Assembly: GCF_006517175.1 (NCBI RefSeq)
Contig: NZ_CP041186.1
Span: 992,001 to 1,056,000, forward strand
Source of the DNA: Persicimonas caeni
Lineage (GTDB): Bacteria; Myxococcota_A; Bradymonadia; Bradymonadales; Bradymonadaceae
Reading direction: 5' to 3'
DNA: 64,000 nt
Made by a program: the position numbers and the translations under genes. Below, one piece after another: positions 38,436 to 55,585 of this stretch (its first letter is position 1; each line of letters starts with the position of its first letter). Under the pieces are notes generated by a model. That model saw nothing but the letters and a program-made list of their open reading frames with translations. It had not been told where the DNA came from and did not search any database.

Positions 38436-40244
38436 ATGCAGTCCCTTACGACCGCATGCACCGTTCTACGCGTTCTGCTCATCAGCGCGCTGCTGGCCAC
38501 GCCCGTCGCCGGCATCGCACAAGAGCAGCCAAATACACAAACCGCCCAAGGCGGACAAAAGACCGAGCGCGCCCGAGCACCGGCGGTGCACTCGGCGCGT
38601 GGGATCGTGGCCACCGACCACCCTCAGGCTTCGGCGGTGGGCGCGCGCATCTTGGCCAACGGTGGAAACGCCGCCGATGCGGGCGCTGCTGCGCTCTTGG
38701 CCAACGGCGTGCTCAATCCGTTCGCCTCCGGCCTCGGTGGCGGAGGGTTCTGTCTGTACCGCCCTGAAGACACGGGCAAAGTTCACGTGATCGACTTTCG
38801 GGAGAAAGCCCCCAAGAAGGCCACGCGCGACATGTTCGTGGTCGACGGGGAACCGGTGCGCGAAATGCAACTTCGCGGCGGCAAGGCGTCGGGGATTCCC
38901 GGCGAACCTGCAGGCCTCTGGGCGCTGCAAAACCGCTTTGGCTCTCTCGAGTGGAGTCAGGTGGTCGATCCCGCCTACAAGCTCGCCAACGACGGATTTT
39001 CCGTCGGCGGACTGCTCGAAAAACGCCTGGACTCGAAAGCTGACGACCTCGAAAAACATCCCAAACTCGCCGCGCTCTTCAAACAAGACGGCGAGTGGGT
39101 CGACGAGGGCGACACACTCACCCGCCCGGGTTTGGCTAAGACCCTGAAATTATATCGAGATGAAGGACCGATCGTCTTCTACCACGGCAAGATCGGCGAG
39201 GCGATTGTCGAAGACGTCAATGAGGCGGGCGGCATCTTCAGCAGCGCCGACCTGACCAGCTACAGTGTCGTCAACCGCGAGCCGATCACCGGCACGTACC
39301 GCGGCTATCAAGTCTTCAGCATGCCGCCGCCCTCCTCGGGCGGAACTACGCTGGTTGAAACCCTCAACATCTTAGAGGGTTTCGAACTCTCCGAAGACGA
39401 GCGCGACGCCAAATCGCTGCACTTGGTCATCGAGTCGCTCAAGCACGCGTTCGCCGACCGTGCGCGCTGGTTGGGCGACACCGACTTCGTCGACGTGCCC
39501 GTGGCGCGCCTGACCTCCAAGGAGTACGCCAAGGAGCTTCGCCAAAAGATCAAACTCGATGGCGTGCTCCCCTTAGAGGAGTACGGCAGCCACCGGCAAG
39601 TTCCCGACGACAGTGGCACCACGCACGTCAGCGTGATCGACGAGGCGGGCAACATGCTCGCGTGCACCTCGACGATTAACACCAGCTTCGGCTCCATGGT
39701 CTTGGTCGACGAGTACGGCCTGATTATGAACAACGAGATGGGTGACTTCACCGCCATGCCTGGCAAGCCGAACAACTACGGGCTGATCGGCACGGGGCAG
39801 AATGCCGTGGCGCCCGAGAAGCGCCCGTTGAGCTCGATGAGCCCGACGCTGGTGCTGCGCGATGGCAAGCCTTACCTTGCCGCCGGAGCGAGTGGCGGCC
39901 CCACGATCATCACCGGCACCCTGCTCGGTCTGATCAACATGGTCGACTTTGGCATGACACCCGCCGAGGCGATCGCCGCCCCCAGAATTCATCATCAATG
40001 GCGCCCCGAAATGCTCTTCACCGAGCCCAGCGTCGAAGATCAGGACAGGCTCCAGGAGTTCGGTCACAAGCTCAGGCTCGGGCCGGCGTTTAACAGCGTA
40101 CAGATTGTGGTACGCCATCCTGACGAGACCCTGACCGGCGTGAGTGACCCGCGCAAAATGGGCCGTCCGGCCGCCGAGCCGGCACCGACGGAGGCGCCCA
40201 ACAAAGAGCCCGCCGAACCACAGGCTGAGACAACCGAGCAGTAA
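38436..40244 (+). CDS. ggt: Gamma-glutamyltranspeptidase
   Basis: 602 residues from the ATG at 38436, with CAGGAG upstream. The signal peptide (LRVLLISALLATPVAGIAQ) indicates periplasmic location. Family motifs: GGNAADAGAAAL, GGGGFCLYR, PPPSSGGTTLVETLN. The autoprocessing site precedes the catalytic Thr in DDSGTTHVSVIDEAGN, followed by TINTSFGSM and ASGGPTIITGTLLGLIN. It hydrolyses or transfers the gamma-glutamyl group of glutathione. The C-terminus has an extra A/P/E-rich tail of about 25 residues. Confidence 0.95.
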   Translation: MQSLTTACTVLRVLLISALLATPVAGIAQEQPNTQTAQGGQKTERARAPAVHSARGIVATDHPQASAVGARILANGGNAADAGAAALLANGVLNPFASGLGGGGFCLYRPEDTGKVHVIDFREKAPKKATRDMFVVDGEPVREMQLRGGKASGIPGEPAGLWALQNRFGSLEWSQVVDPAYKLANDGFSVGGLLEKRLDSKADDLEKHPKLAALFKQDGEWVDEGDTLTRPGLAKTLKLYRDEGPIVFYHGKIGEAIVEDVNEAGGIFSSADLTSYSVVNREPITGTYRGYQVFSMPPPSSGGTTLVETLNILEGFELSEDERDAKSLHLVIESLKHAFADRARWLGDTDFVDVPVARLTSKEYAKELRQKIKLDGVLPLEEYGSHRQVPDDSGTTHVSVIDEAGNMLACTSTINTSFGSMVLVDEYGLIMNNEMGDFTAMPGKPNNYGLIGTGQNAVAPEKRPLSSMSPTLVLRDGKPYLAAGASGGPTIITGTLLGLINMVDFGMTPAEAIAAPRIHHQWRPEMLFTEPSVEDQDRLQEFGHKLRLGPAFNSVQIVVRHPDETLTGVSDPRKMGRPAAEPAPTEAPNKEPAEPQAETTEQ

Positions 40245-40260
40245 CCCCAGGGAATCAGCG

Positions 40261-41436
40261 ATGACCAACCTGCAAGGAGGCACCCTCGCCCTCGAGCACC
40301 GCTACGACGTGCTCGAACGCGCCGACCGTCACGGCTTTATTACGCTGTACCGAGGCCGCCAAGACCCCTTCGACAAACAGGTCTGGGTGAAAGCTTACGA
40401 CGGTCTGGTCGACGTCGGCGCCGGCCTCGAGCTCTTCGATCGTCTCAAGCAAGCGTCCCAAATCTCCAGCGCGCTCGACGCTGACGGAGTGTTGCGCATC
40501 ATCGACTACGGCGAGCTCGAAGGAGGCATTCCCTTCGTGATCTCCGAGCGCACCGACGCCCAGCCCCTCGCAAACCACCTGGTCGAAGAGGGAACGCTGA
40601 GCGCGGAGGCGACCTCGACCTTGTTGACTCGTCTGGCGCAGATTCTGGAGCAGGCGCACCAAAAGGGAGTCGCTCACGGGTCGATCTCACCGCGTTGGAT
40701 CTTCGTCGATGGCGACCGCTACGACGAGGCAGCGTTGGGTCATTTTCAACTCGCGCTCACCGTGCGCGAGATCCTGGACACCGAAAGCGCAGTGATGACC
40801 GCCGAGGCGGTCTCCGCCTTCCCTCCCGAGATGTTCGCGCAGTCTGATACGGACGACGAGCCGCCGAGCTTCGAGCCCGTGGGTGACGTGTGGGCGATGG
40901 GAGTACTCGCCTACGTGGCGCTAGTGGGTGTGCATCCGTTTTTTGAAGACGAGGTCGATGCCAGCGAGGGGATCTTGCGTCTGAGAAATGACGCCCCTCG
41001 ACCGCTTTCCGAGCTCGGAGTCGATCCGGCGATCAGCGACGTGATCGACCGAGCGCTCCAAAAGGATCCGAGCGCTCGGTTTTCGAGCGTCACCGAACTC
41101 GCCGACACCTTCGCGCATGCGGTGGGTATTGACCGGGCCCTCGAGTCGTCGGAGAAGGCAGCCCCCGAGGCTGTCGAGGAGACCTCGCAAGAGGCGCTCT
41201 CGTCACCCGTGAACGAGAACCCCGCCTCCCCGTCGCCGATTGCACGACGCTCGCTCGACGAGCCGGCTGAGCGCCCCCCAGGACCATCTGATCGCCTCAT
41301 GACCCTGGTGATCGTGCTCCTCGTTTTGACCAACCTGGCTTGGCTCTTCTACGTCACTGGCTTTATGTCCGATGACACCGCGTCTCAGACTTCTCCGAAT
41401 AAACCAGCGAGCACCTCTGTTGTAACGGATGGATAG
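40261..41436 (+). CDS. Membrane-anchored serine/threonine pseudokinase-like protein
   Basis: 391 residues from the ATG at 40261, 16 bases after ggt. The fold is Hanks-type: a VWVKAY strand at the VAIK position, a hinge at FVISERTDAQPL, a PPEMFAQSD segment at the APE position, VGDVWAMGVLAYVALVG for the D-x-W-x-x-G helix, and ALQKDPSARFSS. The catalytic loop reads AHGSISPRWIFVDG instead of HRDxKPxN, and no DFG can be found (ALGHFQLAL in its place). Catalysis is therefore unlikely. One membrane helix (LMTLVIVLLVLTNLAWLFYV) near residue 355 leaves a short outer tail. A scaffolding or sensing role is inference. Confidence 0.85.
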   Translation: MTNLQGGTLALEHRYDVLERADRHGFITLYRGRQDPFDKQVWVKAYDGLVDVGAGLELFDRLKQASQISSALDADGVLRIIDYGELEGGIPFVISERTDAQPLANHLVEEGTLSAEATSTLLTRLAQILEQAHQKGVAHGSISPRWIFVDGDRYDEAALGHFQLALTVREILDTESAVMTAEAVSAFPPEMFAQSDTDDEPPSFEPVGDVWAMGVLAYVALVGVHPFFEDEVDASEGILRLRNDAPRPLSELGVDPAISDVIDRALQKDPSARFSSVTELADTFAHAVGIDRALESSEKAAPEAVEETSQEALSSPVNENPASPSPIARRSLDEPAERPPGPSDRLMTLVIVLLVLTNLAWLFYVTGFMSDDTASQTSPNKPASTSVVTDG

Positions 41437-41572: not shown

Positions 41573-41830
41573 TTATAAACACGGCGAGTGACCCACGGCT
41601 CGAATGACACCGGTTGAATTACACCCGGGCGCCCAAGCGCTCCTCCCGCTTGCGTGGACCCTTTTGCAGTCCTTCAAATGAGCGGTTCCTGAAAGTTTTT
41701 CGCTGCAAATCATATTTTAAATAGCTCGCGCCGATTGGAATAGCACTCGGTTTCGGAGTCGTTGAACGGGTAGCCGAATCAGGCCGATCAAATTTCTCGA
41801 CAGTGCGACGAAGAAAAAGTTACAGTCTTA

Positions 41831-41859
41831 TTGACAAATTACAGTAAAACTGAAATAAC
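41831..41859 (+). promoter_or_regulatory. Candidate sigma-70-type promoter of the putative ncRNA
   Basis: TTGACA at 41831-41836, 17-base spacer, AATAAC at 41854-41859 (four of six matches). It is flanked on the left by TTACAGT (41820-41826), and the spacer contains a second TTACAGT (41839-41845). A second, weaker option is TTGACG at 41861 with TAAGAA at 41885. Confidence 0.45.
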
Positions 41860-41865
41860 ATTGAC

Positions 41866-42065
41866 GTACTCGCTGTTTACAGGTTAAGAATGAGGACAAG
41901 TTCTGCGGCTTTTCGTGTGCGAGGTAGGTTGCATCATTTCAAGACACATTCCCTGACTCTTTCCTGAATTCCTTCCAGGAATCTCTCCAAGGATCCTTCC
42001 AGCTTACCTTGCACACGAAAGGCCACAGGATCCCCGCCGGCGCCACTCAGGCGCCGGTTTTTTTT
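41866..42065 (+). ncRNA. Candidate structured small RNA with 25-bp closing stem and terminator
   Basis: 41907-41931 pairs with 42000-42024 over 25 consecutive positions: 21 Watson-Crick pairs and four G-U pairs when read as + strand RNA. Read as minus strand the same four would be A-C mismatches, so the + strand is favoured. The 68-base apical region holds TTCCTG/CAGGAA (41961-41966, 41976-41981) and C/U-rich CCUUCC segments. A terminator follows within 13 bases and a promoter-like element precedes it. It does not match tmRNA, RNase P RNA, SRP RNA or a classic 6S outline as far as I can tell. The 5' end is estimated. Confidence 0.62.
42037..42065 (+). terminator. Rho-independent terminator of the candidate ncRNA
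   Basis: CCGGCGCC (42037-42044), ACTCA loop, GGCGCCGG (42050-42057), then eight T residues to 42065. Confidence 0.93.
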
Positions 42066-42235
42066 GTGCTCAGACACTATGCGCACACAGCGAGACGAGA
42101 AATGCTCATACCAGCGGAGCAAGCCCGGCGCGCAATATCCAAGCAATCGACGCGCATGGAGGCAGCGGTGAGCCGATCGTCTACAGGAGCACGATCGCGC
42201 GCCGATTACAGTATTTATAAAAATGGAATCAATTT

Positions 42236-42256
42236 AATTACAGTCGTACTGTAATT
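42236..42256. promoter_or_regulatory. 21-bp palindrome AATTACAGT-CGT-ACTGTAATT (operator candidate)
   Basis: Perfect dyad with a 3-base centre. The half-site TTACAGT also occurs at 41820, 41839 and 42206. A regulator-binding site is plausible; alternatively it is a hairpin in the lysC 3' region on the minus strand. Confidence 0.5.
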
Positions 42257-42400
42257 GCGCGCCAGCGCGATGTCTCATTGGGAAAAATCATGCGCTGGCA
42301 ATTCTCTGATCTCGCCCCAGCAGCGATCGCTTGGTCGAGCAAGGTGAAGGCGCGATATTCTGAGCAGAAGGAAACAAGCAGCCAAGTGTGGCTGTAGGGC

Positions 42401-55178: not shown

Positions 55179-55252
55179 TGCGGGGTGGAGCAGCCAGGTA
55201 GCTCGTCGGGCTCATAACCCGAAGGCCGCAGGTTCGAATCCTGCCCCCGCTA
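55179..55252 (+). tRNA. tRNA-fMet (CAT), copy 1 of 3
   Basis: 74 nt cloverleaf. Initiator hallmarks: mismatched first acceptor pair (T1 with T72), three G-C pairs in the anticodon stem (TCGGG-CTCATAA-CCCGA), anticodon CAT. T-loop TTCGAAT. CCA is not encoded. Confidence 0.97.
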
Positions 55253-55337
55253 CTCCCGAGACCCTCTGATTTAACGGTCTCACCTTTGAAAACTCGTCAT
55301 CTCGATGACGCATTCGGTCTGGTCGTTCAGACCTTGA
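55253..55337 (+). repeat. Spacer 1 of the tRNA array, three conserved hairpins
   Basis: 85 bp. Stems GAGACC/GGTCTC, CGTCAT/ATGACG and GGTCTG/CAGACC. The same stems occur unchanged in spacer 2 (55412-55496), while loops and linkers differ. Confidence 0.75.
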
Positions 55338-55411
55338 TGCGGGGTGGAGCAGCCAGGTAGCTCGTCGGGCTCATAACCCGAAGGCCGCAGGTTCGAATCC
55401 TGCCCCCGCTA
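55338..55411 (+). tRNA. tRNA-fMet (CAT), copy 2 of 3
   Basis: Identical in sequence to copy 1, placed exactly 159 bp downstream. Same initiator features. Confidence 0.97.
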
Positions 55412-55496
55412 CTCCCGAGACCCTCTGATTGAGCGGTCTCATCTTTGAAAATTCGTCATACTCATGACGCATACGGTCTGGACTTTCAGACCTTGA
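55412..55496 (+). repeat. Spacer 2 of the tRNA array
   Basis: 85 bp. It differs from spacer 1 at about ten positions, all in loops or linkers (for example loop CTCG becomes ACTC within CGTCAT...ATGACG), none in the three stems. Confidence 0.75.
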
Positions 55497-55570
55497 TGCG
55501 GGGTGGAGCAGCCAGGTAGCTCGTCGGGCTCATAACCCGAAGGCCGCAGGTTCGAATCCTGCCCCCGCTA
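55497..55570 (+). tRNA. tRNA-fMet (CAT), copy 3 of 3
   Basis: Identical to copies 1 and 2, again 159 bp on. Followed by a terminator. Confidence 0.97.
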
Positions 55571-55585
55571 CTTCGAAGAACAAAG

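Follow-up and report, generated by a model that had tools for sequence, protein, structure and literature searches.

A conserved candidate TTACAG operator, nearly dedicated to one locus, at the promoter of a new small RNA family in the Bradymonadaceae

The window, that is, the whole 64-kb stretch of Persicimonas caeni DNA analysed here, corresponds to bases 992001–1056000 of a single-contig genome of 8,047,206 bp (G000). Its TTACAGT sites are found between a kinase-like gene (Pkinase) and lysC, which encodes an amino acid kinase, and these two genes are convergent. The kinase-like gene (40144–41436) matches only positions 51–255 of the 263 in the kinase profile, and it reads HGSISPRW at the expected position of HRD, the catalytic motif of kinases. 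Because of the partial match and this replacement, its product may be a pseudokinase. The neighbourhood also includes a gamma-glutamyltransferase gene. Elsewhere in the window, three consecutive tRNA-Met genes, 159 bp apart and with identical scores, occupy 55179–55571.

A previous inspection of the letters alone (the sequence-only reading) had placed TTACAGT at 41820, 41839, 42206 and 42238, and all four are exact on the plus strand. A fifth copy, on the minus strand (42248–42254), forms the right arm of the downstream dyad AATTACAGT-CGT-ACTGTAATT (42236–42256), whose 9-nt arms are perfect around 3 nt, as reported. The first two sites have starts separated by 19 bp, and the hexamer TTGACA (41831–41836) does lie between them. 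A further dyad had been missed, TTACAGT-AAA-ACTGAAA (41839–41855), of 17 bp and with one mismatch, whose left arm is the site at 41839.

The predicted transcript of this intergenic region is a small RNA on the plus strand (41866–42066; −82.9 kcal/mol), with ends inferred from a promoter and from an intrinsic terminator at 42036–42066 (stem 42036–42058, then a T run). It includes a long hairpin of 30 pairs (41902–42029) topped by an apical loop at 41934–42000, and the fold of 41888–42070 has an energy of −81.7 kcal/mol (z −7.81). At the Rfam gathering threshold only three tRNAs were found in the window and the RNA fits no known family; the best weak match near it was a ylbH leader on the minus strand (30.4 bits vs 50). 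Our covariance model, which hits 41898–42031, also scores the minus strand of the hairpin (38.5 vs 126.1 bits in the window), as expected of any hairpin, and the plus strand was chosen because of the promoter and terminator. This choice of strand was also the sole reason for setting aside a CsrA-type sponge on the GGA-rich minus strand.

Searches by DNA similarity recovered a whole or partial copy of the RNA from 11 relatives within the family, or 12 if G019, where the copy is cut by a contig end, is counted (G002, G003, G006, G008, G011, G013, G014 and G016–G020). Searching with the promoter motif alone revealed four further homologues that the DNA search had missed (G004, G005, G007 and G010). 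The covariance model matches 19 of the 21 family genomes, this one included, the two without a match being G009 and G019. In an alignment of 16 hairpins (A2; the near copy L024 was omitted), 18 of the 30 pairs are changed on both sides while 94.2% of cells are paired, and covariation is 0.484 as against 0.177 in shuffles, none of 500 of which was as high. In most loci examined the RNA comes after the kinase-like gene, with lysC facing it from the other side; lysC was not recognised adjoining it in G001 and G012. Both genomes of genus g4 that were examined (G003 and G015; L026, L090) carry a tandem double hairpin.

Within larger samples the model matches 21 of 282 phylum genomes and 14 of 38 class genomes, all of them in the family except G027 and G028. 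These two and G023 may hold distant members, in which the stem is long and the loop periodic (at most 16 of 1000 shuffles as high in loop periodicity); an alignment that included the distant members (A3) was poor and was not used for the model. A weak match in G014 (C154) was rejected, as it resembles a stretch coding for a lipoprotein signal peptide. Our literature search listed no paper on a small RNA of the Bradymonadales. Judged by covariation, fold and distribution, the RNA is real and its predicted structure is conserved.

The sequence-only reading held that so many exact copies of a 7-mer are unlikely by chance in GC-rich DNA. The clustering is indeed beyond chance, but GC-rich DNA is the wrong null, because the sites lie in AT-rich patches (GC 0.356 at 41800–41900 and 0.328 at 42200–42260, vs 0.626 for the window). 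Chance in such a patch draws some support from the whole-window shuffles, 3 of 100 of which reach the five copies observed (mean 1.40). It fails locally: the 471 bp of 41800–42270 contain TTACAGT five times, while 3000 dinucleotide shuffles of this interval, which allow only partly for the AT-richness of the patches, had no copy in 2889 cases, one in 108 and two in 3, and any 7-mer at all reached five or more copies in 15. With the conservation across genera described below, these local shuffles lead us to reject chance clustering, to which we leave a very small probability. The word is present 80 times in the 8.05-Mb genome, compared with 203 for its reversed form.

The inferred promoter of the RNA consists of TTGACA as the −35 element and AATAAC (41854–41859) as the −10 element, separated by 17 bp. 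Three candidate half-sites are arranged on it: H1 (TTACAGT, 41820–41826) upstream of the −35, H2 (TTACAGT, 41839–41845) within the spacer, and H3 on the minus strand (41849–41855, ACTGAAA on the plus strand), the right arm of the one-mismatch dyad. We aligned one proximal promoter per genus from 11 genera, using hand-picked anchors, and obtained the consensus TT(A/C)CA-N6-TTGAC-N3-TTACAG-N6-TGNAATA. The TGA of the −35 is kept in all 11 and the AATA of the −10 in 10. H2 is exactly TTACAG in nine genera, while H1 reads TTACAG in five and TTCCA in five. H3 is the weakest of the three (TGNAA in 10 of 11, TGGAA in 7 of 11, within one mismatch in G000, G010, G004 and G005 only), and since it overlaps the −10, its conservation may be the promoter's own. 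G003 fits poorly (four, two and three mismatches in H1, H2 and H3) and was aligned by position.

In 10 of 12 genera the 220 bp preceding the RNA contain TTACAG, and no other 6-mer is found there in as many; in 1000 mononucleotide shuffles, which disregard resemblance by descent among homologous promoters, any 6-mer reached eight genera once. In G012 and G001 (genus g2) the RNA is present and TTACAG was not seen upstream. A consensus promoter scanner did not call TTGACA-17-AATAAC and called TCGACA-18-TACAGT (41797–41826) instead, in which TTACAGT becomes part of the −10. Four genera (g3, g12, g13 and g7) have a second, distal promoter (P1) of the same three-site plan. In seven such promoters H1 is exact in six, H3 reads CTGTAA in six and the weak site is H2, which reverses the pattern of the proximal promoter. 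That the plan recurs with different sites strong suggests a protein rather than a single polymerase contact.

A composite pattern of the promoter, allowed up to three mismatches, matched 22 times in 25 genomes, and its reversed control twice. All 14 matches with up to two mismatches lie at this RNA; of the eight with three, three are at the RNA and five elsewhere. This recovery of the loci is partly circular, as the pattern was derived from them. G010 contains a possible second RNA with a loop array and a shorter stem (E 0.007), about 160 bp downstream of a one-mismatch dyad.

The genome-wide search for the dyad that the sequence-only reading had proposed did not reveal a broad regulon. With up to two mismatches, TTACAGTN3ACTGTAA occurs at four places in the genome, two of them at the RNA locus, and the reversed control pattern also occurs at four; the counts being equal, what is remarkable is the clustering rather than how many dyads there are. 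The two best matches in the genome have centres 399 bp apart, one of them (42236–42256) being the sole exact occurrence and the other, with one mismatch, being equalled by a dyad at 1908430. The 75 other TTACAGT sites include no perfect dyad, one with one mismatch (1908430), one with two (4868134) and three with three. Thus a wide regulon was rejected, and in clustered or dyad form the motif is not common at random genomic sites. The dyad at 1908430 (L003:1501–1517, G000:C1) is upstream of a dndC-like gene that is divergent from a dndA/sspA-like gene, with dndD close by, all phosphorothioation (dnd-like) genes; as real and control counts are equal, it is treated as a lead only. Relatives have dyads with at most one mismatch at 10 places in 19 genomes. 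Four lie at, or close to, this RNA or the possible second copy of it in G010 (C12), and the others (dnd; G001 C175; G010 C14, C237 and C255; G026) have no theme in common. The G001 C175 dyad is upstream of a gene that was judged cold-shock-like by eye.

We consider it likely that a sequence-specific DNA-binding protein controls this one small RNA, and that the TTACAGT words on the promoter of the RNA, with the family consensus TTNCAG, are the half-sites which this protein recognises. The words stand beyond chance, and their position relative to the promoter elements is kept in 11 genera, if weakly in G003. The three half-sites would be read as right, 12 bp, right, 3 bp, left, surrounding the −35 and filling the spacer to the −10. 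With the sites so placed, the simplest effect of a bound protein would be to obstruct RNA polymerase, and the putative regulator, nearly dedicated to this locus, is probably a repressor that some signal would lift. None of the neighbouring genes inspected was recognised as a regulator, and its gene would be unlinked to the RNA. The words, the RNA and the conserved spacing are features of the DNA itself; binding is what we infer from them. A conserved and nearly dedicated operator on the promoter of this new RNA family is, at the level of sequence, well supported. The regulation of the promoter put forward in the sequence-only reading is thereby partly supported, the RNA being real and the placement of the sites round TTGACA being kept across genera; the support does not extend to four sites acting jointly, as those at 42206 and 42238 have no exact counterpart beyond the RNA in 12 relatives' loci.

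The words on the promoter could instead be an unusual core promoter, contacted by RNA polymerase or an alternative sigma factor and retained through common ancestry because cells need the RNA, with no regulator involved. Such an explanation agrees with the location of H2 and H3 within the spacer and the −10, with the near confinement of the composite to one locus, with the ability of the scanner to take TTACAGT for a −10, and with GGAATA and TTGA being as constant across genera as TTACAG. H1 speaks against it, as it is outside the −35/−10 span and repeats the word in the same direction, and so do the near-perfect dyad of the word in the spacers of G000 and G010 and the perfect dyad 42236–42256, away from evident promoters; we hold a core promoter without a regulator to be improbable. 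Downstream, the site at 42206–42212 and the dyad arms at 42238–42254 are both past the terminator of the RNA. In this genome the same protein may use the pair as an auxiliary operator, a single case; the dyad centres, 399 bp or 38.0 turns apart (at 10.5 bp per turn), would suit looping between the dyads. That the pair is instead unrelated to the promoter sites, whether as a degenerate promoter copy or as a hairpin beyond lysC, is a serious possibility, if somewhat short of an even chance. A scan of 12 relatives' loci revealed no exact TTACAGT downstream of the RNA, so that the pair is seen in this genome only; local duplication does happen, to judge by the tandem RNA copies of G003 and G015; and the dyad can fold into a 9-bp hairpin (−6.4 kcal/mol). 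Against an unrelated origin, it is the only perfect dyad in the genome and contains the word in exact form, a search of the genome revealed no duplicate of the locus, and at the dyad the terminator scan made no call and no U run follows. The hairpin at the 3' end of lysC that had been named as a possible refutation is likewise not favoured, since the dyad lies 145 bp beyond the lysC stop.

The apical loop of the RNA, at the top of a stable hairpin, is C-rich and poor in G (37.5% and 5.9% in 17 loops), 68–80 nt long, and composed of about six YC-rich units 11–13 nt apart; in several members the loop is predicted to form a small hairpin of its own. In this genome the units are spaced by 13, 12, 12, 12 and 12 nt and score above all 1000 shuffles. 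Six units were counted in 16 of 17 loops and seven in G017, a number that follows partly from loop length because the count imposed the 11–13-nt spacing. The period itself was tested by counts of CC pairs at each lag (17 of 20 loops, without the near copies G016, G003b and G015b) and by chain scores (one loop from each of 12 genera, plus four distant ones). CC pairs number 55 at lag 12 (23.1 expected, sd 4.6; 0 of 500 shuffles as high) and 33 at lag 24 (17.9; 1 of 500), with lags 4 and 13 raised too. The chain of units 11–13 nt apart exceeds shuffles in all 12 genera, 0–5 of 1000 shuffles being as high in 11 of them and 41 of 1000 in G008. Over the genera the excess peaks at 11–14 nt (z 15.0 for 11–13 and 16.3 for 12–14), compared with 10.0 for 10–12 and at most 5.5 for the remaining ranges tested. 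As the loops are homologous, these tests are not independent.

The primary site of Rho reads YC. Each subunit of the Rho hexamer has one primary site (PMC12133298), and the rut site searched for by RhoTermPredict is described as about 78 nt with C over G and cytosines every 11–13 nt (PMC6407284). In its letters the loop agrees with this description, and it would appear able to accommodate a hexameric RNA-binding ring such as Rho. The RNA would act in trans through this YC-rich loop. We tentatively suggest, while holding it unlikely, that the RNA is a natural trap for Rho, its hairpin displaying about six loop units, one per subunit, at the spacing of Rho, and that this trap would be switched by the TTACAGT-binding regulator and would set the level of Rho-dependent termination. 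A Rho-family match is present in all 24 genomes searched, above the cut-off in 21. A second, shortened Rho paralog without the N-terminal RNA-binding part was observed in 13 of 15 family genomes and in none of nine outside, and matches the profile only from positions about 120–134 on; here it is at G000:C1:4741220–4742059 on the minus strand (L202:4715–5638), in a 307-aa frame with a basic N-terminus or tail. A trap would spare this shortened Rho. The co-occurrence of the RNA and the short Rho amounts to one event each in one shared clade, and so is no evidence of a link. No mention of Rho being sequestered or titrated was found among the papers listed on Rho traps, which does not establish their absence from print. 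The RNA might otherwise regulate several targets as an antisense sRNA, using CCUNCC motifs of its loop to pair with Shine-Dalgarno sequences in the manner of the alpha-r14/cuckoo RNAs, a function that we find rather doubtful. Its CCUUCC, CCUACC and CCCUCC motifs do complement purine-rich ribosome-binding sites, and the alpha-r14 RNAs repeat CCUCCUCCC in their loops (PMC10746234). Yet the unit varies at positions 3–4 (U 0.69/0.60), with only Y and C well kept, and antisense pairing does not require the marked 11–14-nt periodicity.

These data join a conserved, putatively near-dedicated operator to an undescribed RNA family in little-studied predatory bacteria. CsrB tunes CsrA and 6S RNA tunes RNA polymerase; if the present RNA holds Rho, termination genome-wide would be tuned by an RNA decoy under its own regulator. 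Some bacterial repressor operators overlap sigma-70 promoters, and the arrangement resembles theirs in its inverted half-sites between −35 and −10 and the extra half-site upstream of the −35. It differs from them in being a triple half-site almost dedicated to one locus, with an RNA gene as the target. GacA/UvrY boxes (TGTAAG-N6-CTTACA) are located upstream of the csrB/rsmZ RNAs, and here too a dyad of similar letters precedes an sRNA gene whose product has a repeat array of a protein-binding type. The half-sites here are reversed (TTACAG...CTGTAA) and on the core promoter, however, and the RNA, in contrast to csrB/rsmZ, has no GGA array on its coding strand. TTACAGT itself occurs in none of the papers listed by a literature search. 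The alpha-r14/cuckoo sRNAs (NfeR1) are similar in their repeated, unpaired C-rich motifs and in stems whose sequence is free to vary, but have three hairpins and one invariant motif (PMC10746234), whereas the present RNA has one long hairpin and about six variable, regularly spaced units. Rut sites share with the loop a C-rich, G-poor stretch of 70–80 nt with cytosines every 11–13 nt (PMC6407284); unlike them, the stretch described here caps a hairpin of 30 pairs as its apical loop, and the RNA that carries it is free-standing and has an intrinsic terminator at its end.
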